The translations under genes were made by a program, and so were the position numbers. The notes beneath the pieces were generated by a model. It worked only from the letters and a program-made list of their open reading frames with translations, ran no database searches and was not told the DNA's origin. This document shows, in pieces, positions 841 through 30,030 of a DNA stretch of 33,996 bases (within the stretch, counting starts at the first letter, position 1; each line of letters opens with the position of its first letter). Origin of the DNA: Syntrophobacteraceae bacterium (lineage in GTDB: Bacteria; Desulfobacterota; Syntrophobacteria; Syntrophobacterales; Syntrophobacteraceae); NCBI GenBank assembly GCA_029974695.1, contig JARKQW010000341.1:1-33996 (forward strand), given 5' to 3'.

Positions 841-2994
841 TTACTGGACTTCCTGTCCTGGACGAGGTTTTTGCTTCTTTTCTCCGGCCTGGCCCGGGGT
901 TTTGTTTTCCCGTTGGGCACTCGGTTCCCGGGGTTCTCTCGACTCACGCATCTGCTGCCGTTCTTCCCGGCGCTGCTGCCTCAGGTCTTCCCGGGGAGGC
1001 TGCTGCTCCCGCTGTCGTGGCTCCTGCACCTGGGGCCGATCCTCCCGACGCTGCGGTCTAGCCTCCGGTGCCGACGGACCCGAATCCTGCCGACGCCGCT
1101 CCTCCATCTGCTGCCGTTCTTCCCGGCGCTGCTGCCTCAGGTCTTCCCGGGGAGGCTGCTGCTCCCGCTGTCGTGGCTCCTGCACCTGGGGGCGTTCTTC
1201 CCGCTGTCGCCGACGATCCTGCTCGGGTTGGACCTTTTCTTTCTGCGGGGAGCGAAGTTCTTTGGGAGATTGGATTCCCTTTTCCTCCCGGGCTTTCTCG
1301 GGGCGATCCTCGGGCGGTCTTCGATCCGGCTTGACCACCTCCGGTTTTCGAGGCCGGTCCTCAGGACCACGGGCCCGCTCCTGCTGCATCTCCCGGGAGG
1401 CCCGTTCCTTCTTTTTGAGCTCCCGTTCGTTGAACTTCAGCTCCCCCTTGGGCTTGTTCACTTCGTTCTCGGAAACCAGCTTGTTCGTCACCTTCGGTCG
1501 AGCGATCTTGGCCTCCGGGGCGAGTTTTCCCTGCTTGAGGTTGACGGTGCTCTTCTGTAGAGAGGCCGCGTTCACCTTTCCTATCCGCCCGGCGAGATTC
1601 CGATTCTTCTCGATTCGATTCACCACGGTCTGGTGAGGCTTCTTCACCACTTTCACATTCGTGAAATGGTACCTCTGCCTGTCGACGTTGTAGTTCTTAA
1701 TCACGGTCTGGTTCACCACGGGGGCGGGGCGGTAGTGGTTGATGATCACGGTCTTATTGATGTTCTTGATGCGCACGTTGGTGTAGCTGCGCACGCCCCA
1801 GAAATTGGACTGGTTCACCACCACGGCGTGGTTCAGATAACGATACCCTCCCAAGTTGATATGGATGTTGGCGAGGCCCACGTTGGCCACCACCATGGAC
1901 CGGGGCCCCCACCAGCGATGGGAGTAGTAGGGTTCGAAGGGGGCCAGGGGGACCCACCCGACCTCCGCACCCGAGTGGATCCACGCCACCCGCCCCGGGT
2001 ACCAGCCATACCCGACGTTCAGGAGGGGCACGGCCGCCACCCTCACCACGGGGGGGGCCCAGTACCACCTGCGGGCGGTTTCCACGTATACCCAGTTGCC
2101 GTAATGGTGCGTCACGTACCCGAAGGGTTCGTCGGGCACCCAGCAGTTGTCTTCCTGCCACACGGTCCAGCGCCCCACCGTAAAGGGAGCCCAGTCGGCA
2201 TGCACGTGGACCGGTCGCCAGAAATAGCGGGCCTGTCCCTCGTACTCGACCCTTTCCCAGCTTCCGTTCTCCTCCAGGGCATACGCTTCCCGGTGGAGTC
2301 CCTCGGGGAGGTACCGGACCGATTCTCCCCGGGTTTGGAGCTTCCTGTCCCAGAAGCCCTCTCGGTCGAGGTTCCAGTCGTCCCAATCGGCGTCCACGTC
2401 CCCCTTTCCCGAGGTCACCTGCCTGCCGTCGGAGATGAGGGAGGAAGACCCTGCCAGGACTTCGAATCTGCTCCCGTCGGATTCGATGACAAAGTCCACC
2501 CGGCCTCTCAGCCCGATGACCTCCACCGACTCGTCGCCTACGTAGAGGTCAAAGGTCGTCTTTTCAGGGGCAAGGACATATCCGAAAGGAGTCGTGGCCT
2601 TGATCAGTCCCCGGGAGCTGTTGTTGTACAGGCGGGCCAGCCCCGAAGCCACATCCACCTCCGTAACGTCGTCCTCGAGAGCGATCATCTGGACCTGGGT
2701 ATCCCCGCCGATCCGCAGAAGGGTACCGTTGGGCATGAGGATCTCCCCCTTGGTCTCCGGGTCCGAATACAGGGCGTCGTCGATCCCGAAAGGTGCGTCT
2801 TTTACCGTCGCCACCCAGTCCTTCTCTTCGGGAACAAACCGGAGGATCTGCCCCCCGTCGATATGGGAGATGCGCCCCACCAGCACCCCTTCCCCCTCGG
2901 AAGGTTTGGGCTGGGCGGAAACCGGCGGCACAGCCCCCACCAGAAAGACCAGGCTCATCAAAATACTCGCGGTCAGCCGTCGATATTGCCTCAT
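841..2994 (-). CDS. Secreted FecR-domain / DUF6600-type protein with Arg/Gln/Glu-rich repeat tail
   Basis: About 717 residues. A signal peptide (MRQYRRLTASILMSLVFLVG, cleavage near VSAQ) is followed by a FecR-like beta domain at about residues 35-190 (resembling the periplasmic FecR fold, with pieces such as IGGDTQVQM and TPFGYVLAPE). Next comes a Trp/Tyr-rich segment at about 230-380 with repeated YxW/GxW spacing (YFWRPVHVH, RWYWAPP, GWYPGRVAW), typical of DUF6600 proteins. The last 200 residues are charged, low-complexity Arg/Gln/Glu/Pro and contain an exact repeat. The ATG at 2994 is preferred over 3015 because GAGGAG lies 7 bases upstream and the signal peptide then starts cleanly. It is probably exported and envelope-associated; the biochemical role is unknown. 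It is transcribed toward pepA with no partner gene. Confidence 0.75.
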   Translation of the reverse strand: MRQYRRLTASILMSLVFLVGAVPPVSAQPKPSEGEGVLVGRISHIDGGQILRFVPEEKDWVATVKDAPFGIDDALYSDPETKGEILMPNGTLLRIGGDTQVQMIALEDDVTEVDVASGLARLYNNSSRGLIKATTPFGYVLAPEKTTFDLYVGDESVEVIGLRGRVDFVIESDGSRFEVLAGSSSLISDGRQVTSGKGDVDADWDDWNLDREGFWDRKLQTRGESVRYLPEGLHREAYALEENGSWERVEYEGQARYFWRPVHVHADWAPFTVGRWTVWQEDNCWVPDEPFGYVTHHYGNWVYVETARRWYWAPPVVRVAAVPLLNVGYGWYPGRVAWIHSGAEVGWVPLAPFEPYYSHRWWGPRSMVVANVGLANIHINLGGYRYLNHAVVVNQSNFWGVRSYTNVRIKNINKTVIINHYRPAPVVNQTVIKNYNVDRQRYHFTNVKVVKKPHQTVVNRIEKNRNLAGRIGKVNAASLQKSTVNLKQGKLAPEAKIARPKVTNKLVSENEVNKPKGELKFNERELKKKERASREMQQERARGPEDRPRKPEVVKPDRRPPEDRPEKAREEKGIQSPKELRSPQKEKVQPEQDRRRQREERPQVQEPRQREQQPPREDLRQQRREERQQMEERRRQDSGPSAPEARPQRREDRPQVQEPRQREQQPPREDLRQQRREERQQMRESREPREPSAQRENKTPGQAGEKKQKPRPGQEVQ
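949..1035 (-). repeat. Exact 87-bp direct repeat, copy A
   Basis: Identical to 1105-1191; the offset of 156 bp keeps frame (52 codons). It lies inside the low-complexity tail of the FecR/DUF6600 gene and encodes Gln/Arg/Glu-rich sequence including QVQEPRQREQQPPRED. Confidence 0.9.
1105..1191 (-). repeat. Exact 87-bp direct repeat, copy B
   Basis: Second copy of the 949-1035 block, in the same orientation and frame. Flanking sequence diverges on both sides, so the identity points to recent duplication or gene conversion within the coding tail. Confidence 0.9.
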
Positions 2995-3015
2995 CGAGTC
3001 ACTCCTCTTCGTCAT

Positions 3016-22227: not shown

Positions 22228-23106
22228 ATGGAGAACGAGTGGATATCGTTGGAGCAGGTCACCTTTGTTCGAAATCGGCGGACCATCTTGGACGGGATCG
22301 ACTGGAGGGTTCAACCGGGAGATCACTGGGTTGTGCTGGGGGCCAACGGTTCGGGGAAAACGACCCTTCTGCAGCTCCTGGCCGGATATCTCTGGCCCAC
22401 CCAGGGCAGCGTCGTCGTTTTGGGAGAACGTTTCGGCCACACGGACCTGAGGGAATTGCGCAAACGGATCGGATGGGTGGGTTCCTTTCTCGAAATGCAG
22501 GTCCCGTCCACCACAAAACCCCTAGACCTCATCGTCAGCGGGAAATACGCATCCATCGGCATCTTCGAGGTCCCCACCCAGGAAGATTATCGTGAGGCCC
22601 AAGACCTTGCGTCCCGGCTGGGGTGCGAACGAATCCTCGACTCCCCTTACGGAGTTCTCTCCCAGGGGGAAAAGCAGCGGCTCCTCATCGCCCGGGCCCT
22701 CATTCACCGCCCTCCCCTTCTCATCCTGGACGAGCCGTGCGCGGGCCTGGACCTGGCCGCCCGGGAGCAGCTCCTCCGGACCCTCGACGACATGGGACGC
22801 GGCAACCCCGGCCTCACCATGATCCTGGTGACCCATCACCTGGAGGAGATCACCCCGGTGTTCTCCGGCGTGCTGCTCCTCAAGGAAGGCCGCTGCACGG
22901 CCCAAGGGCAAAAGGAGGAGATCCTTTCCCCGGACCGGTTGAACCATGTGTTCGGCATCCCCATCGAGGTCCACCGAAAACAAGGCCGCTACTGGGCCGC
23001 CATGCGGTTCGAAGACGACGCCCAGGACCTGTTCGGGAACAAGACTCCCCCTTCCCCCACCAACCTCGGGGGAGGAAGGCGGACGGGCATTAGAAGTGAA
23101 CGATGA
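22228..23106 (+). CDS. Lone ABC transporter ATP-binding protein
   Basis: 292 residues. Complete nucleotide-binding subunit: Walker A GANGSGKTT at 38-46, signature LSQGEKQR at 144-151, Walker B LLILDEP at 164-170 with the catalytic Glu, D-loop GLDLA, and the switch His in VTHHLEEI near 203. Overall it resembles single-domain ATPases of the ModF/iron-complex type. No permease or binding-protein gene is adjacent, so its partner lies elsewhere or it has a non-transport role. GAGGAAAT precedes the ATG. The Arg-rich tail of about 30 residues is unusual, and the gene's 3' end overlaps the convergent barrel gene by 17 bp. Confidence 0.93.
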   Translation: MENEWISLEQVTFVRNRRTILDGIDWRVQPGDHWVVLGANGSGKTTLLQLLAGYLWPTQGSVVVLGERFGHTDLRELRKRIGWVGSFLEMQVPSTTKPLDLIVSGKYASIGIFEVPTQEDYREAQDLASRLGCERILDSPYGVLSQGEKQRLLIARALIHRPPLLILDEPCAGLDLAAREQLLRTLDDMGRGNPGLTMILVTHHLEEITPVFSGVLLLKEGRCTAQGQKEEILSPDRLNHVFGIPIEVHRKQGRYWAAMRFEDDAQDLFGNKTPPSPTNLGGGRRTGIRSER

Positions 23107-24427
23107 GGGAGGTGAAGAGGGTGTGCTCGCAGACGTCCTGGGAAAACCTCTGAGGTCGAACGATGGAGCTGCCCACATCCGTTCCCAGGCGAACCTGGTA
23201 GGCAATGTCCCAGACGGTCCTTCCCACGCCGATCCCCGAGCCCAGGCTAAAGCCGTAGTAAGGGTCGTGCCCCCCCTCGGCCGGGGCCGGGTCATAGAAT
23301 CCCCCTGCGCGAAGGGGCACCACGAAGCCGGGCCGGATGAAAAGACGCTCGAAGCCGGCTCGAACCTGGGTCGTGGCCTCGATCCTCGATTTTCCCAGAG
23401 GCAGGCCGCTCACCGGGGAAAACTCTCTGCCCCGGGCGCTTCGATAGACGAAGTCCTCCCACTGGGTCCGGGAAACATCCAGGGCCGCCGTCAGCTTGTC
23501 GGAAAAGCGATACCCCAGCCCCACCCCGTAGGACATGGGCATGTCCAGTTCTTCGTCCAGGAAATTGACCTGACGATAGGCCGGATACGGAAGATACCGG
23601 ATGACCGACGTGGTTCGATGAGCCAGTTCCGCGGTGAAGGGGCTCTTGAACACCAGGCCCAGGCTCAGGTGTTCGGTGAGGTTCCAAAGGGCGCCCACAT
23701 TCACATTCCAGCCGCTGAAATCGTAACGATTTCGAACGTAGTGATTCACCCTGTGGAGATCGCCCAGGATGTCCCTGACACGGTTGCGGGTTCGAATGAC
23801 CTGTTCCCACCCGTTGCGATACAGCAGATCTTCCCACAAATTCAGGGTACAGCCCACTGCAAGTCGAGGTGATACTTGAACCCCCAGGGCAATTCCCAAG
23901 GCGTACAGCCCTCCGCCCTGGTCCACTTTCCATGCCTGCTTCAACCCCTCCGAGTGGAGCCGGGTGTTCCATTCCCGGGTAAAATCGTAGAGGTGCTGAT
24001 AGTTGAGGGACGCCACCACGTTGGTGTCGGCCACCACAAGGGGGCAAGCGGCGCTCAGGTAGTTGAGTCCCCCCCGGGAGACGGTCTGTTTCTCCGAAGC
24101 CTCCGAGTGATCCGGAAAAAGGTTGTCCTCGGACCGGAGAACGGCGGTGCCCACGGCGGAAATTTCGGGGCACTCCAACTGGGTAAGCCCCCCCGGATTC
24201 CAGGAAGCCGCAGTGGCGTCGTCCGCAACCCCGATGAACGCGCCTCCCATCCCCAGGGCCCGCGCACCGGAGCCCACGGGATTGGGAGAAGAGGCAATTT
24301 CGGCGCTTTGCAGGCTCTGGGCCCACCCCGTTGCCCCCAGGACGAGAACGGTCGACAGAAAAAATACGGCTGCCGGAAAGAGGGTCCACAAGGGCCGGGG
24401 CTTTTTCTTGCCTGGAAAGAGAGACAT
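23090..24427 (-). CDS. FadL/OmpP1-like outer-membrane barrel protein
   Basis: 445 residues. After a signal peptide (FPAAVFFLSTVLVLGATGWA) the sequence reads GARALGMGGAFIGVADDATA and SWNPGGLTQLE, the N-terminal signature of FadL/OmpP1-type long-chain or hydrophobic-compound channels and related barrels. The rest is amphipathic beta strands ending in IVHF, the Phe expected at the end of BAM substrates. The ATG at 24427 is preferred to one at 24541 because the longer frame reads through the upstream gene. The Shine-Dalgarno is weak. It is the last gene of the four-gene minus cassette, 20 bases after the small gene before it, and overlaps the ABC ATPase gene by 17 bp at the 3' end. Confidence 0.85.
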   Translation of the reverse strand: MSLFPGKKKPRPLWTLFPAAVFFLSTVLVLGATGWAQSLQSAEIASSPNPVGSGARALGMGGAFIGVADDATAASWNPGGLTQLECPEISAVGTAVLRSEDNLFPDHSEASEKQTVSRGGLNYLSAACPLVVADTNVVASLNYQHLYDFTREWNTRLHSEGLKQAWKVDQGGGLYALGIALGVQVSPRLAVGCTLNLWEDLLYRNGWEQVIRTRNRVRDILGDLHRVNHYVRNRYDFSGWNVNVGALWNLTEHLSLGLVFKSPFTAELAHRTTSVIRYLPYPAYRQVNFLDEELDMPMSYGVGLGYRFSDKLTAALDVSRTQWEDFVYRSARGREFSPVSGLPLGKSRIEATTQVRAGFERLFIRPGFVVPLRAGGFYDPAPAEGGHDPYYGFSLGSGIGVGRTVWDIAYQVRLGTDVGSSIVRPQRFSQDVCEHTLFTSLIVHF

Positions 24428-24799: not shown

Positions 24800-26827
24800 C
24801 TATTGGGTGAGGACCTTCTGGAGGGGCTCGAAGCTCCGGGGTCCGTTCCCCGCCGGGGCTTCCACCTCGGACATCTGCTCCCCGACGGCCCGGACGAGCC
24901 CCCACCCCAGCACTTCCATGTCGGCCCCCAGGAAGACGCCCGATAGCGGATGTCGGACGGGTTCCCCTTCCCGGAAAACGATGACTCTCATCCCTCGTTT
25001 CAGACGGCTCTCTTTGCCCAAATCCACCGTCAGTCGGTTGTCTTGGACCCGAACGACGGTTCCTTCCAGGAGGGGCACCTCGTCGCAGAGCTTCAAGACC
25101 AGGCCCCGGCTGAGCTCGTGCAGGGACGGCAGGTCCCGTTCCTCGCCATAAACATCCACGGCGGCGATCACCAGGGAGGTTTCCGTATCCACCAGGCGAA
25201 GGTAGATTTCGAGGGTCGGCCCCTTTTCCCGGACAGTTCCCATGAGCATGCCCCCCGCAGCCAGGATCTTTCCGATCCGGACCGCCGTATCCGCATCGGC
25301 CAGCCCCCCGGCTCCCAGTCTTTGTTCCCGAAGGATCTCCTCGAGACGGCGCCGCTCCACCAGGGCGAACCGCCCCTGCCGGACCAGGTCCCCCAGGATG
25401 AGCTCCTCCAGGGCATCCGCCGCGGATCCTCCGCCGTCCGGACGTCCATCGAGGGGAAGAAGCGCCACGGGCAAACGGGAACCGATGTCCCGGACCTTCT
25501 GGAGACGACGCTCGAAGCGCACGGTCTTTTCAGCCTTGTTCCCGTGCAGGTCCCGGGCCTCGATCACAAAATCGTTTGCCCCTTCCTCGAGGGAAGCCAG
25601 GTGAGCCAGGTGAACCCTCTTGCCTGCGCTGCGCGGCAAGGGGCGACCGTTGAGCCGGACCTCGGCCACCCCGCTTTCGTCTCGAACGCAGGCTTCCAGG
25701 TACACCTGGTCGAGAAACACCTGCTGCTGCGCCGACCAGTTGCGCAGTTCGATCAGGGGAGGAAAGACATCTCCGCCCCTTTGATCCCCTTCGTCCGGGG
25801 ACGGGGAAACCGGGGTCCGGGACGCCGTCAGGGTCCTTCTCTCCCGGGAAAGGCTCTCCAGGGGGATTTCCGCCCGAGTTGCGTTTCCCACCCGGTCCCG
25901 GGCTTCCACAAGGACCCGGTCCGACCCCGGAGCCGGGAAGACCGGCAAATCCAGGCGAAGTTCCTTTCCCGAAGGAATCGGAACGACCCGGCCGTTCACG
26001 ACGACCTCCTCGAGTCCGGCATCGTCGTGAACGATTCCCCGGATTCTGAACCCCGGGGATTTCCTTCCCGATTCCCGGAAAACCCCCTCGATGCCGATGG
26101 TGGGACCCTGGGAATCCAGGACGACCCATCGTTCCAGCCGGGAGATTCGTCCTTCCAGGTTGGCCGCTTCCACCACGACGGGATTGGACCCGCCCCGAAG
26201 CTTCACCTGCCGGTGGAACGGGACCTCCCGGGCCGCAAGGTCCAGGCGGACGGGCTCCCCGTTGACGGTGACCCGTTTGACGAAACCCGGGTCCCGAACG
26301 AGGCCCTCCACCCGGGCCACAGGGGTTCGCACCCAGGTGTCGGGATCGGGGGAAGACAGGAGGATCTCGGGAACGGACGCCGGGGTCTTTTCCTCTCGAA
26401 TCTTCTCTTTGCGGACCAGGTCCAGGTAATATTCCGCCTTGGCGGACTTCTCGGAACCCAGGGACTCCTCGATCTCCCGGGTCGCCTCCTCGAAACGTCC
26501 CCGCCGAAAATAGACGATCCCCAGTTCCCGGTGGGGAAAGTAATCCGTGAAGTGCATTCCGTAGGTCCGGGCTCGCCTTTGATCTTTCCCCCTGAGCTTC
26601 AGCGCATGCTTCAGGTCCGCCTCGGCCTCCTGCCAGGCCCCGGCTTCCGCGCGGGAAATTCCCCGGTGGTAGTAGTGCCACCAACGACCCCGAAAGGTCC
26701 CCTTCATGAGTCCCCCGGTCCTCTCCGGGGGAGCCCCTATCTTGATGAGGTCCCCGGTCTCGCAGGCCCAAAGACCCAGGAGAAGGAGCACGGAAAGAAC
26801 GGCCGAAAAGACCCCCGCCATCCTCAT
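24800..26827 (-). CDS. Lipoprotein: TPR, three Ig-like repeats, CsgG/FlgT-like C-terminus
   Basis: 675 residues. A signal peptide ends at a lipobox-like LWAC (Cys22). Residues about 45-140 hold TPR-like helices (ISRAEAGAWQEAEADLKHAL, ELGIVYFRRGRFEEATREIE). Three repeats follow at about 165-240, 262-320 and 375-435, each with VNG (or LNG) and then VEA.D..GN-type strand ends (VLVEARDRVGNAT, FVIEARDLHGNKA). Residues about 450-560 resemble CsgG/FlgO (VALLPLD, VERRRLEEIL, VRIGKILAAGG, LRLVDTET), and 585-630 a FlgT-C-like barrel. The start overlaps the previous stop (ATGA); ATG 26821, two codons later, has better spacing from GGGAGG. An outer- or inner-leaflet anchored partner of the preceding cyclase-CHAT protein is inferred. 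An open frame running further upstream, to 28237, lies antisense-free but in the wrong frame of that gene and was not used. Confidence 0.82.
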   Translation of the reverse strand: MRMAGVFSAVLSVLLLLGLWACETGDLIKIGAPPERTGGLMKGTFRGRWWHYYHRGISRAEAGAWQEAEADLKHALKLRGKDQRRARTYGMHFTDYFPHRELGIVYFRRGRFEEATREIEESLGSEKSAKAEYYLDLVRKEKIREEKTPASVPEILLSSPDPDTWVRTPVARVEGLVRDPGFVKRVTVNGEPVRLDLAAREVPFHRQVKLRGGSNPVVVEAANLEGRISRLERWVVLDSQGPTIGIEGVFRESGRKSPGFRIRGIVHDDAGLEEVVVNGRVVPIPSGKELRLDLPVFPAPGSDRVLVEARDRVGNATRAEIPLESLSRERRTLTASRTPVSPSPDEGDQRGGDVFPPLIELRNWSAQQQVFLDQVYLEACVRDESGVAEVRLNGRPLPRSAGKRVHLAHLASLEEGANDFVIEARDLHGNKAEKTVRFERRLQKVRDIGSRLPVALLPLDGRPDGGGSAADALEELILGDLVRQGRFALVERRRLEEILREQRLGAGGLADADTAVRIGKILAAGGMLMGTVREKGPTLEIYLRLVDTETSLVIAAVDVYGEERDLPSLHELSRGLVLKLCDEVPLLEGTVVRVQDNRLTVDLGKESRLKRGMRVIVFREGEPVRHPLSGVFLGADMEVLGWGLVRAVGEQMSEVEAPAGNGPRSFEPLQKVLTQ

Positions 26828-29800
26828 CCTCCCCGTGCCCCGGGAATTTCCTCGACCCGCCACCCCGGCTGCAGCCGAGCCTGGGGAGAGACGAGTACGG
26901 CCGTAGACGACCCGTCGGACACGTCCAGGACCACCAGTTCCGCTCCCTTCCCTTCGGGTTCCATGACCCGCAGGCGCATATCGGTTGCGATTCCGCAAAG
27001 GCTCCCGGCATTGAGAGTCAACTGGGAACCCAGGACTTCCCGGATGCGGCACCGGACGGGATAGGCCTCCGTGAGGCGTTCCCGGAACTGCCGGGAGGTT
27101 TTCCTCACGGCAGCCACGGGATCTTCCCCGCCGGGAACCAGGGCGCTCGAATGGGCCATCACCCGAGTGGTCTCCGTATCCACGGCCTTGAGGTTCAGTT
27201 GGACCCGGCCCTGATGGCGCAGAATCGAGCCCGTGCAGAGGACTCGGGCCGAAAGAATCTTCCCCAGGCGAAGAGCGGTCTGGGGCTCCGCCAGCTGGGA
27301 GCTGCTCAGTCGCAATTCCTCGAGGAGCCGATCCAGCAGTGCCCGTTCCACCACCTGAATACGAGGGCATTCCGCCAGTTCCCCCGCGATGAGCTGGGAG
27401 AAAAACGCGTCCTCCCCCTCCCGGGGAGACGGTGCCCCACGAGGCTCGAGATCGAGGAAGAACAGGGAAAGGGGCCGGGAAGTCCATGGGTCCGCCCCCG
27501 AGAGCGACCGGGGTCCCTCCCCGTAGGCCTGCACCAGTTGGGCCACCAGGTCGTCGATCCGCTTCTTTTGTTCTTCGTTCCTGCGTGCTTCCTTCTCCTG
27601 CCGACTTCGCCGGTACAATCCAAAATTGACCACATCGTCGCAGTTGACCGAGGCACCCTTCTCGTAGGAATCCACGGCACCCTCCAGCCGGCCCAGCCGT
27701 TCCAGGGTTAGGCCCCTGGCCGTGTAGACCGGGAGAAACGCGGGATCTGCCTGCAGCGCCCGGTCGAATTCTTCCAGGGCTTCGTTCAACGAGCCCCGCA
27801 TCAGCTCGATCCGCCCCAGGTCCAGGTGGATCTCCGCCCGCTGCCATGGCTGCAGTTTCTCCTCGTTTGCGATCTTGCGGAAGGAGAGCCGTGCCTCGTC
27901 CGTGTTGCCCGAGGCCAGGGCGAACCGTGCGGCCAGAACGTCCAGGTAGGGATCGTCCGGCTCTCGGGATCGAGCCGATTTCCACGCTTCTCGGGCTTCT
28001 TCCACGTTTCCCTTTGCCAGGGCCAGGGCCGAAAGTCCCTGGTAGTAGACGGCGTTCTTGTCCGTCATGGACTGAAGGAGGCCCTCGGCCCGGGAGATCT
28101 GACCCGTATGAAGGAGATGGAAGGCTTCCTCGCCGGGCCTCCGGAGGGCATTCGGCCCGGGGCTTTCCCTCCGGATGCCCAGGACAAAGAGGCCGAGGAT
28201 TAGGACCAGGGCCGAAACCAGGGAGAGAACAGGCCACCGCCGGACCTTATTCCTCCAGAACCGGGAGAGAAAAGAAAACGCCCCGGCGGGGGCGACGCCC
28301 CGGTCCGGAAACGTCTCCAAAGGATCCCCGTGGAGCACATAGGAGGCCCAGGTAAGGGTCTCCTTGCCGTAGTGTTCAATGGACCGCTGACGGGCATAGC
28401 GCAGGGCCTCCCCCACGGGACTCCCTTCCAGGAGGCGCGTATAGAATTCGCGGGCAAAGGCGGAGCTCGATCGGTCGAAAACATCGAGCCTCGACCCGAT
28501 GTAATGGCGAACCCCCGACTGGAGGAAACCGCCGGCCAGCCCGTGGAGCCGCTCCCCGGAAGATCCGCCCGGGTCGCGGACCGATCGGCACGCGTTGGCA
28601 AAAACCAGCCGGGGAAGCCTCTTCCTCCGGGCCAGCCCCAGGAGCCGTCCCGTTTCAAACTTGCCGTCGGACAGGAGGAATCCGCTGAGGGAGGGATCCG
28701 CCCCGTCGAAGTCCCAATGGCCCGCATAATGAAAGAGGTCGTACTGGGGCAGTTGATCCTCGAGGAAGGCGCAGGTGGCCTCCCGACTGCTGAGGTACAC
28801 CCGCAGACCGGGAATGTCTTTTCGGGTGAAAACCCTTCGCACGGAGATCCCTTCGGCCCGGGCGGCCGTCAGGTCTCCCCGGGGGTCCGCCACGATCAGC
28901 ACTCCCACCCCGGCCGGGCGGGACTTTCCTCGAGGAAGATCCGTCGACGGAGAGGAAAGGACCATCCTTCCCATGCTGTACTTGAGACAGAAGAAGCTTT
29001 CCCCGTCGTGCAGCAATTCCCAGGGAATGTGCACCAGGGCCGGGTCGATCCCGCACAGGACGGAGTCGGGTCGCCGGTCGAGGACCTCCTTGGCCAGGTC
29101 TCGAGGGACCAGGATCTCGTAGAGGTTTGTGCCGAGGTTTTCCAGTCGTCGGACCTGTTCCTTGGAAACCCTTCCCCTAGAATCCGTTCCCAAGAGACAC
29201 TCGTCGATTTCTTCCACCAACTCCCGGACCTCCCGTTCTTGAAACGGAACCCTGAGGGACCTCGGTACTCCGTCCTCTCTTTTCCCCCAGGAGGCGTCGA
29301 TTCGCAGGATGTCGTCTTCCATTTGGAAGGTCAGCCGGCAGGAGGCCCCGCCCGATTCCGGCCCCTCCCGCCCCGGGGGGAGCGTCCGCTTGAGGTCCGC
29401 CTCCTGGAAGGGGTCCCACAGGATCCGATAGACGTCCACGGGCAGGGTTTTCCCTTTGAGGGTTTTGGCCCCTACGTATTCGTGGGCGATTTCCGGAGCA
29501 TCCCGGACGGCATCCACCAGGGACCGGGAAACAAGGATGTCCCCTTTCTTGGCCAGGGAACACAGTCGAGCCGCCGTGTTGGGGACGTCTCCGTGGATGT
29601 CCGTTTCTTCGACGATCGCCAGCCCCCAGTGCATGCCGATCCTCACCCGGATCTGTTCGAGGGGCTCCCGGCCCTTATTCTCGGAGGCCAGTCTGCGCTG
29701 GATTTCCGCCGCAGCGAGGGCCGCCCGGACGGGGTCCCGGAAGGAGACCATCAAACCGTCCCCCAGGGTCTTGGTGACGGTGCCGCCATGAGCCTCGATG

Positions 29801-30030
29801 ACGGGCCGCAGGAGGTCATGGTGCCGCTGAAGCATGAGCCTGCCCTCCAGGTCCCCCAGCTTTTCGAAGTAGTCCGTGGACGCCACGATGTCGGTAAAGG
29901 CAACGGCAACGGGGCGCTGAAACCGATCCCGTATGCTCCGGTCAAGGTCCTCTCTCCTGCGCAGGAATTCTTCGATGGAGGAGACGGGGCTTCCGGGGTC
30001 ATCGTCCTTGGGGAGATCATGGAGAGTCAT
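26824..30030 (-). CDS. Nucleotide cyclase - CHAT protease - TM - TPR - CsgG-like fusion
   Basis: 1068 residues. Class III adenylate/guanylate cyclase at about 38-205: metal ligands Asp47 (AFTDIVAST) and Asp91 (KTLGDGLMVSF), Lys88, and Asn151/Arg155 (DVPNTAARL). CHAT caspase-like domain at about 300-575: His438 in FHYAGHWDF and Cys481 in VFANACRSV form the expected catalytic dyad. One membrane helix at 600-618 follows a basic stretch (RFWRNKVRRW), so both enzymes should face the cytoplasm. TPR repeats occupy about 632-795, then a coil, then a CsgG/FlgO-like domain at about 855-960 (VVERALLDRLLEEL, LRLGKILSARVL) and a FlgT-C-like end at 990-1062, all predicted periplasmic. AGAGGAA precedes ATG 30030. 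First gene of the cassette; its stop overlaps the next start. Domain identities are strong; the signal and substrate are unknown. Confidence 0.9.
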   Translation of the reverse strand: MTLHDLPKDDDPGSPVSSIEEFLRRREDLDRSIRDRFQRPVAVAFTDIVASTDYFEKLGDLEGRLMLQRHHDLLRPVIEAHGGTVTKTLGDGLMVSFRDPVRAALAAAEIQRRLASENKGREPLEQIRVRIGMHWGLAIVEETDIHGDVPNTAARLCSLAKKGDILVSRSLVDAVRDAPEIAHEYVGAKTLKGKTLPVDVYRILWDPFQEADLKRTLPPGREGPESGGASCRLTFQMEDDILRIDASWGKREDGVPRSLRVPFQEREVRELVEEIDECLLGTDSRGRVSKEQVRRLENLGTNLYEILVPRDLAKEVLDRRPDSVLCGIDPALVHIPWELLHDGESFFCLKYSMGRMVLSSPSTDLPRGKSRPAGVGVLIVADPRGDLTAARAEGISVRRVFTRKDIPGLRVYLSSREATCAFLEDQLPQYDLFHYAGHWDFDGADPSLSGFLLSDGKFETGRLLGLARRKRLPRLVFANACRSVRDPGGSSGERLHGLAGGFLQSGVRHYIGSRLDVFDRSSSAFAREFYTRLLEGSPVGEALRYARQRSIEHYGKETLTWASYVLHGDPLETFPDRGVAPAGAFSFLSRFWRNKVRRWPVLSLVSALVLILGLFVLGIRRESPGPNALRRPGEEAFHLLHTGQISRAEGLLQSMTDKNAVYYQGLSALALAKGNVEEAREAWKSARSREPDDPYLDVLAARFALASGNTDEARLSFRKIANEEKLQPWQRAEIHLDLGRIELMRGSLNEALEEFDRALQADPAFLPVYTARGLTLERLGRLEGAVDSYEKGASVNCDDVVNFGLYRRSRQEKEARRNEEQKKRIDDLVAQLVQAYGEGPRSLSGADPWTSRPLSLFFLDLEPRGAPSPREGEDAFFSQLIAGELAECPRIQVVERALLDRLLEELRLSSSQLAEPQTALRLGKILSARVLCTGSILRHQGRVQLNLKAVDTETTRVMAHSSALVPGGEDPVAAVRKTSRQFRERLTEAYPVRCRIREVLGSQLTLNAGSLCGIATDMRLRVMEPEGKGAELVVLDVSDGSSTAVLVSPQARLQPGWRVEEIPGARGG

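Follow-up and report, generated by a model that had tools for sequence, protein, structure and literature searches.

In the FecA-FecR-FecI system, an envelope signal reaches an ECF sigma factor via an anti-sigma factor, and an outer-membrane protein is part of the pathway. The route from the envelope via an anti-sigma factor is likewise that of DegS-RseA-RpoE (PMC10028731 for DegS-RseA). Csx30 holds an ECF sigma factor in check and is a cleavage substrate of Csx29, a protease of the TPR-CHAT type (PMC10028731). In separases, two acidic residues hold the P1 arginine, a Glu that follows strand 1 and an Asp located at helix 4, and Trp916-Glu917 is their W-E pair after strand 1 (PMC4626109). HetF, a cyanobacterial putative protease with roles in cell division and heterocyst development, combines CHAT, one transmembrane segment and TPR (PMC8406250).

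The window analysed here, the whole stretch of 33,996 nucleotides, encodes a protein of 1068 amino acids at 26824-30030 on the minus strand, where all features given below are also located. It combines a class III cyclase, a CHAT protease region, a membrane helix, TPRs and a CsgG/FlgT-like tail. It is proposed, with a probability of about 0.6, that this protein spans the inner membrane once and serves as an envelope receptor which feeds two outputs in the cytoplasm, a second messenger and regulated proteolysis. The preliminary description of this DNA recognised no described system with this arrangement, and a search of open-access PMC papers likewise found neither a cyclase-CHAT fusion nor a cluster of CHAT, ECF and zf-HC2 genes described. 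The main ECF classification lay outside this search and may already list an ECF group with a CHAT context.

Domains and active sites

The gene starts with ATG, its frame is open for 1068 amino acids, and its GC3 is the coding signature of the genome. Pfam and AlphaFold2 agree that one polypeptide contains all five parts, as the preliminary description had stated. The profile searches and structure prediction suggested there as checks returned Guanylate_cyc, CHAT, TPR and partial CsgG matches (Pfam) and a CHAT fold in the predicted model. The mean pLDDT is 86.9 and each domain is backed by the model; the pTM of 0.51 means that the model speaks to the domains, not to their mutual arrangement.

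The cyclase domain covers residues 35–206 (29413-29928). Guanylate_cyc (PF00211) matches residues 40–195 at 2.9e-14, and the domain aligns with the Ma1120 adenylyl cyclase (4wp9) with Z of 26.3 and rmsd of 1.5 (VIA-align). By direct reading and comparison with relatives, the metal residues are D47 (29890-29892) and D91 (29758-29760), and the transition-state residues are N151 and R155 (29566-29580). These four had been named correctly before. The adenine-specifying lysine is K87 (29770-29772), not "Lys88" as given earlier, since position 88 is a threonine. The second substrate-specifying residue, D144 (29599-29601), was absent from the earlier list. The pair K87/D144 is of the adenylate type and, judged from these residues, predicts ATP as the substrate and cAMP as the product.

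Residues 206–580 (28291-29415) form a separase/Csx29-like region with a pseudo- and an active caspase-like part. CHAT (PF12770) matches residues 299–569 at 4.4e-35, with a score of 121.9 against the cut-off of 24 bits. VIA-align superimposes the region on separase 5fc2 (Z 23.6 over 300 amino acids) and on Csx29 7y9x (Z 23.4 over 301 amino acids). The catalytic residues are H438 (28717-28719) and C481 (28588-28590). The earlier reading of this dyad was right, but its lone CHAT domain is in fact a tandem region of the separase/Csx29 type. E338 of the PWE motif (29017-29019) occupies the position of the separase P1-Arg anchor, as W-E after strand 1; this assignment is based on the motif and the order of elements, rather than on a solved complex. 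Glu is seen at position 338 in 45 of 46 members of set A5 and in all 24 of set A7, and D519 is likewise conserved. The acidic S1 residues E338 and D519 suggest Arg at P1.

A single transmembrane helix is located at residues 599–620 (28171-28236) by AlphaFold2 and hydropathy, the maximum of which is at 601–619. RFWRNKVRR lies before the helix and only IRR behind it, so the N-terminus is placed inside. The helix and its flanking charges bear out the topology suggested earlier, with cytoplasmic enzymes and a periplasmic TPR/CsgG region. Both the TPR repeats (residues 632–838, 27517-28137; AlphaFold2, and Pfam at about 660–800) and the CsgG/FlgT-like tail (residues 850–1064, 26839-27483) are predicted to be periplasmic. 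The tail resembles FlgT (3w1e, E 4e-9, Foldseek) and part of CsgG (residues 881–937, 2e-7, Pfam), as had been claimed. The CsgG matches cover only 38–99, or 44–99, of the 210 profile positions, and the whole CsgG domain with pore-forming strands was not seen; a CsgG pore is thus not indicated.

Sigma factors and cyclic nucleotides in relatives

The locus search with the single sequence yielded nothing, and the alignment-based query yielded 80 loci. Both cyclase and CHAT are carried by 47 relatives. CHAT-CsgG without the cyclase is seen in nine loci, and cyclase-CsgG without CHAT in two (L150 and L151). The two enzymes are evolutionarily separable.

A pair of an ECF sigma factor and a zf-HC2 anti-sigma factor is encoded directly upstream in all 31 evaluable CHAT loci without the cyclase and in 18 of the 35 evaluable cyclase-CHAT loci. 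The sigma factors of relatives exceed the cut-off of sigma70-ECF (NCBIfam). In locus L059, the pair matches sigma70 r4 (2.7e-9), sigma70 r2 (8e-5) and zf-HC2 (1.6e-6) in Pfam and shows a HxxxCxxC zinc finger. The preliminary description did not contain this pair, which accompanies most CHAT relatives.

The zf-HC2 anti-sigma factors look soluble. An Arg in their linker is present in 44 of 45, and in the last one it is shifted by one residue. It lies at the edge of the sole internal stretch with pLDDT below 50 (residues 124–133), which in the anti-sigma model separates the helical sigma-binding part from a beta domain. An essentially invariant Arg in a disordered linker is fitting for a separase-like protease with Arg at P1, and the pair provides a plausible target of the protease in relatives. 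The anti-sigma factor is not a Csx30 relative by sequence, and Csx30 is absent among the fold matches listed for its model; the fold search of the beta domain gave weak Ig/FN3-like matches only. The CHAT dyad is lost in two Rokubacteria and one short paralogue, all of them in sigma-less loci; with three cases, this association is weak.

The window's genome (88.7% complete) contains no match to either of the two families, sigma or anti-sigma (thresholds 0.01 for set A4 and 1e-8 for set A3). No recognisable anti-sigma factor of this family is seen in this genome or in that of the same-genus relative (88.7% and 93% complete). Because the anti-sigma family is not recognised there, the target for which the evidence is best in relatives cannot be carried over to the window protein. 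With the sigma/anti-sigma pair missing, cAMP is the likelier main output in the window's clade. In the window's genome, six domains that bind cNMP score above the cut-off. Proteins that bind cNMP are encoded beside the module in four relatives, and two of these proteins are protein kinases; the difference in such neighbours (4/47 versus 0/37, p = 0.13) is suggestive, though not significant.

Envelope partners and alternative readings

Two envelope proteins are encoded downstream of the cyclase-CHAT gene. The first is a lipoprotein of 675 amino acids (24800-26827) with the lipobox Cys22, TPR, a Glucodextran_B/Ig-like domain and a CsgG-like domain (Pfam, direct reading). The two genes share 4 nt (ATGA) where that of the lipoprotein begins and that of cyclase-CHAT ends, and Cys22 is invariant across six relatives. 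The second is an outer-membrane beta-barrel, probably of FadL/PorV/BamG-like type (23090-24427), with the probable start MSLFPG and a signal peptide. It matches Toluene_X at 6e-9, with 35.3 against the cut-off of 29.7 (Pfam), as well as BamG (1.5e-17) and PorV (2e-8), both far under their curated cut-offs (NCBIfam). The preliminary description had missed both partners.

Among the 12 loci with at least 4.5 kb of flank on both sides, the lipoprotein is present in 12 and the barrel in 10, across phyla. Relatives with the same envelope genes beside them come from about five bacterial phyla. In the same-genus genome (L040), the gene, the lipoprotein and the barrel are in the identical order. A frameshift in this copy was considered and rejected, as a run of N, an assembly gap, interrupts the contig there.

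These partners invite the reading that the tail, the lipoprotein and the barrel are an outer-membrane assembly or export device of a CsgG/PorV/BamG-like kind, and that cyclase-CHAT only reports on or times the assembly. CsgG-like domains occur in both the tail protein and the lipoprotein, the models nearest to the barrel are BamG and PorV, and the tail is similar to FlgT. Moreover, barrels of relatives carry extra exported domains, Sortilin/BNR in L094 and CarboxypepD_reg in L104. The short CsgG match and the sub-threshold BamG and PorV scores speak against such a device, however, and the regular presence of sigma and anti-sigma genes in relatives points to signalling. This alternative is considered unlikely, with a real share of probability.

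The cyclase could also be mainly a dimerising or nucleotide-sensing domain whose catalysis is of secondary importance or has disappeared in many lineages, CHAT being the working output. On the CHAT tree the cyclase state changes at least nine times, while CHAT, and the sigma pair outside the window's clade, mostly stay. In about one third of the 47 cyclase-CHAT relatives the substrate pair is not K/D, and in one of the 47 Glu replaces both metal Asp residues. On the other hand, the six residues D-K-D-D-N-R are all kept in 30 of the 47, the window protein included. Both metal Asp residues are present in 46 of 47, Asn in 44 and Arg in all 47. The survey of homologues, which had been suggested as another check, also found the CHAT His/Cys in 43 of 47, with one more masked by an assembly gap. 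L150 and L151 keep the cyclase and drop CHAT, and the cyclase is retained throughout the sigma-less group of nine to which the window belongs. A cyclase of minor catalytic importance is rated as rather improbable.

A phage-defence or cell-death effector of the CBASS SAVED-CHAT or Pycsar-like kind, in which one protein would unite a cyclase with a suicide protease, is very unlikely. PADLOC reports SAVED_CHAT (8e-7) and PycC (2e-5), but these matches reflect shared folds and fall on the cyclase and CHAT only. Pfam detects no CBASS SAVED domain in the window protein, and in the operon neither SAVED nor a Pycsar effector, CRISPR or any further defence gene was seen. The envelope partners are the same across phyla, and the other neighbours in the window (YceG, MobA-like, ABC transporter and RadC) are housekeeping genes.

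That the gene is a chance fusion, a pseudogene or an assembly artefact has practically no probability: the same-genus copy is interrupted within its contig, but by the run of N, and full-length colinear relatives with conserved active sites at 31–47% identity, from several independent genomes of other families, orders and phyla, rule out a chance fusion or an assembly chimera.

Proposed pathway and comparison with known systems

The receptor with two cytoplasmic outputs can be pictured as follows. The periplasmic TPR and CsgG/FlgT-like tail, together with the lipoprotein and the barrel, would read the state of the envelope. The signal would pass through the membrane helix and rearrange the cytoplasmic part. 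The class III cyclase would then make cAMP, and the CHAT cysteine protease would cut after arginine, as its S1 residues suggest. In most relatives, CHAT probably cuts the soluble zf-HC2 anti-sigma factor encoded upstream at the linker Arg, by which the ECF sigma factor would be freed. In the window's clade, cAMP might be read by cyclic-nucleotide-binding proteins, and CHAT would act on a different target. The computation establishes the domain content with its fold and topology, the intactness of both active sites, the operon, the conservation and, in relatives, the sigma linkage; catalysis, its product, the sensing role, the cleavage site and the coupling of both outputs are inferred.

It can be speculated further, at somewhat less than even odds, that this is a widespread and so far undescribed envelope-to-transcription pathway of Gram-negatives. 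Here the receptor CHAT would cut the soluble zf-HC2 anti-sigma factor after the invariant Arg and free the ECF sigma factor, with the cyclase in parallel. Craspase/CASP-sigma could be considered a borrowed version of this CHAT-sigma circuit, which would be the older of the two, and the window's branch would have lost the sigma arm and run on cAMP. If these proposals are correct, a second messenger and regulated proteolysis are joined to an envelope sensor in one polypeptide, and CHAT proteases have a general non-immune role in sigma factor control. The occurrence of CHAT beside a pair of ECF sigma and soluble anti-sigma genes in several phyla yields a single-residue prediction, the linker Arg. 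The CHAT-sigma association hints at a possible origin of the type III-E CRISPR protease-sigma switch.

The class III adenylate cyclases Ma1120, Rv1900c and CyaB share the catalytic fold and all six catalytic residues with the window domain, whereas none of them is joined to a CHAT protease. With separase (C50) and CHAT proteases the window protein has in common the fold, the His/Cys dyad, the PWE motif and, at S1, the acidic positions associated with arginine at P1; it differs from separase in being a bacterial membrane receptor fused to a cyclase. HetF has neither a cyclase nor a CsgG/FlgT-like tail, and the passages on it in PMC8406250 mention no sigma/anti-sigma partner.

In Craspase/CASP of type III-E, about 300 residues of Csx29 align with the CHAT region (the Z of 23.4 above), with a CHAT sequence identity of 11%. 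The company of Csx29 with Csx30 and CASP-sigma resembles that of the relatives' CHAT gene with an ECF sigma factor and its inhibitor (PMC10028731). Here, however, there is no CRISPR effector or RNA guide, and the protease is part of a membrane receptor instead of a soluble TPR-CHAT protein. The inhibitor in relatives is a zf-HC2 anti-sigma factor, not Csx30-like by sequence, and the window has no sigma pair. Cas7-11, Csx30 and CASP-sigma were not found in the window locus, where the neighbours are the genes described above. Compared with DegS-RseA-RpoE and FecA-FecR-FecI, the anti-sigma factor here seems to be soluble, the protease would be a cytoplasmic CHAT inside the receptor, and a cyclase is added.

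Architecture and active sites of the cyclase-CHAT protein

The open frame at 26824–30030 on the reverse strand encodes 1068 amino acids, and its GC3 matches the coding pattern of the genome. Guanylate_cyc (residues 40–195), CHAT (residues 299–569), TPRs and a partial CsgG (881–937) all score over the Pfam cut-offs. Direct reading of the residues confirms the cyclase D47, D91, N151 and R155 and the CHAT H438 and C481 named in the preliminary description; its Lys88 is a threonine, and the lysine is K87. The second substrate-specifying position is D144, seven residues N-terminal of N151. In class III cyclases a residue pair sets the substrate, and K/D is the adenylate type. The pair of K87 and D144 thus predicts an adenylate-type cyclase in the window.

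The structure prediction proposed earlier as a check, an AlphaFold2 model built on 46 aligned relatives (mean pLDDT 86.9), contains both enzyme folds. By VIA-align, residues 35–206 fit Ma1120, an adenylyl cyclase, with Z 26.3 and rmsd 1.5 over 165 aligned residues. Residues 206–580 fit separase 5fc2 (Z 23.6, 300 aligned) and Csx29 7y9x (Z 23.4, 301 aligned). FlgT 3w1e is among the Foldseek matches (E 4e-9). The pTM is 0.51, so the relative placement of the domains is not given by the model. There is a single hydrophobic helix (599–620), flanked on its N side by the basic stretch RFWRNKVRR. This basic side predicts that the N-terminus is in the cytoplasm and the tail in the periplasm.

Colinear full-length relatives are seen in the same family and in other orders. 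Scanning named genomes yielded 80 related loci in Desulfobacterota, Nitrospirota, Nitrospinota, Rokubacteria and Omnitrophota, the nearest being from Syntrophobacteraceae; cyclase-CHAT proteins of this kind are present in about 15 of 395 sampled Desulfobacterota genomes. Among 47 distinct cyclase-CHAT proteins, both metal Asp are kept in 46, the cyclase Arg in all 47, and the complete D-K-D-D-N-R set in 30. The CHAT His/Cys are kept in 43, masked by an assembly gap in one and absent from three. The relatives therefore do not usually lack either set of residues, and they do not refute the earlier reading of the protein as a dual enzyme.

Two Rokubacteria proteins (L065 7222–10389 and L073 3134–6181) have lost the CHAT dyad, carry Q/N rather than K/D as the substrate pair of the cyclase, and have no sigma/anti-sigma pair. 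The window's genome encodes a second cyclase-CHAT-TM paralogue (L003 735–3704) with a proline-rich tail and without the TPR/CsgG tail. Its counterpart in the sister genome (L041 4403–7393) has lost the CHAT Cys. Both adjoin a DegT-like aminotransferase.

Envelope partners and module variants

The next gene (24800–26827, reverse strand) overlaps the stop of the cyclase-CHAT gene by 4 nt (ATGA). Its product is a lipoprotein that combines TPR, Glucodextran_B and CsgG-like domains and whose lipobox Cys22 is invariant across six relatives. An outer-membrane barrel gene follows (23090–24427, reverse strand), which is Toluene_X/FadL by Pfam; its closest NCBIfam models, BamG and PorV, score below their cut-offs. 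Twelve cyclase-CHAT-CsgG loci have 4.5 kb or more on each side; all 12 encode the lipoprotein, and 10 of them the barrel.

The module also occurs as CHAT-CsgG without the cyclase and as cyclase-CsgG without CHAT (L150, L151). At L045 (6971–10564), a Ser/Thr kinase is fused ahead of cyclase-CHAT-CsgG, and both cyclase metal Asp are Glu. These variants indicate that the cyclase and CHAT are swappable outputs on a single predicted envelope input.

At two loci the module's FadL-like barrel carries a fused exported domain: a Sortilin/BNR propeller at L094 (1884–6527) and CarboxypepD_reg at L104 (10619–12826). The same TPR-CsgG-FlgT_C tail is found at L152 (880–2892), on an AhpC/TSA (thioredoxin-like) protein adjoined by a short second CsgG-like protein, and in its relatives L153–L160. 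The window also encodes a DUF6600 protein of 724 aa (844–3015, reverse strand).

The sigma/anti-sigma pair as a candidate target

In many relatives, ECF sigma and zf-HC2 anti-sigma genes lie directly upstream of the CHAT gene. Where at least 1.7 kb upstream is available, this pair is present at 31 of 31 CHAT loci without the cyclase versus 18 of 35 with it. The anti-sigmas look soluble. Only one residue is conserved in their variable linker, an arginine seen in 44 of 45 and displaced by one position in the remaining one. It lies at the edge of 124–133, the only internal stretch predicted to be disordered, between the helical part and a beta domain.

Separases cleave after arginine, which in a homology model is held by a Glu after strand 1, preceded by Trp, and by an Asp at helix 4 (PMC4626109). 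The receptor family of the window's protein conserves both a PWE motif (E338) and D519, which would fit as the counterparts of these Glu and Asp; the equivalence of D519 is set by motif position and may be one residue off. The CASP system offers a precedent: Csx29, a CHAT protease, cuts Csx30, which inhibits an ECF sigma (PMC10028731); the pair-bearing relatives share with it a CHAT protease plus an ECF sigma and its inhibitor. From this precedent, the arginine specificity of separases, PWE/D519 and the conserved linker arginine, we infer that in pair-bearing receptors the CHAT region would cut the zf-HC2 anti-sigma at that arginine.

The pair is found upstream of L097 (7884–10934), in which CHAT is followed by DUF4384 and a trypsin-like domain, and of L100 (4111–7152), a protein of similar length.

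Probable cAMP output in the window's clade, and known systems

Both genes of the pair are absent from the window's genome and the same-genus genome (88.7% and 93% complete); the latter has a weak general sigma match. The CHAT tree, whose root is arbitrary, places the window in a group of nine sequences (support 94, unstarred). All nine keep the cyclase, and the pair is absent or not judgeable. In one member, L053, the gene directly upstream encodes a cyclic-nucleotide-binding protein, and a gene for a cNMP-binding protein kinase lies downstream. Such neighbours are seen at L053 and three other cyclase loci and at none of 37 loci without the cyclase, but the two groups do not differ significantly. 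In the window's genome, six cNMP-binding domains score over the cut-off. Based on the absent pair and these domains and neighbours, cAMP is taken as the likelier main output of the window's receptor.

At L053 (2501–3217, 8681–10117) and L060 (4514–6159), the module is flanked by a cNMP-binding protein and cNMP-binding Ser/Thr kinases, one with PilZ, resembling a bacterial PKA/PKG-like arm. Upstream of the L053 operon (1–2445) lie proteins in which a caspase-like YDACxSGSF motif recurs; the one scanned matched no Pfam family.

The earlier judgement that no such system is described holds for the open-access papers searched: none on a cyclase-CHAT receptor was found there, nor any on a CHAT/ECF/zf-HC2 cluster, which the main ECF classification may contain. 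The parts are known, and the receptor with its partners is a new arrangement of them, which would work in a manner like that of known envelope-to-sigma and receptor-cyclase pathways.
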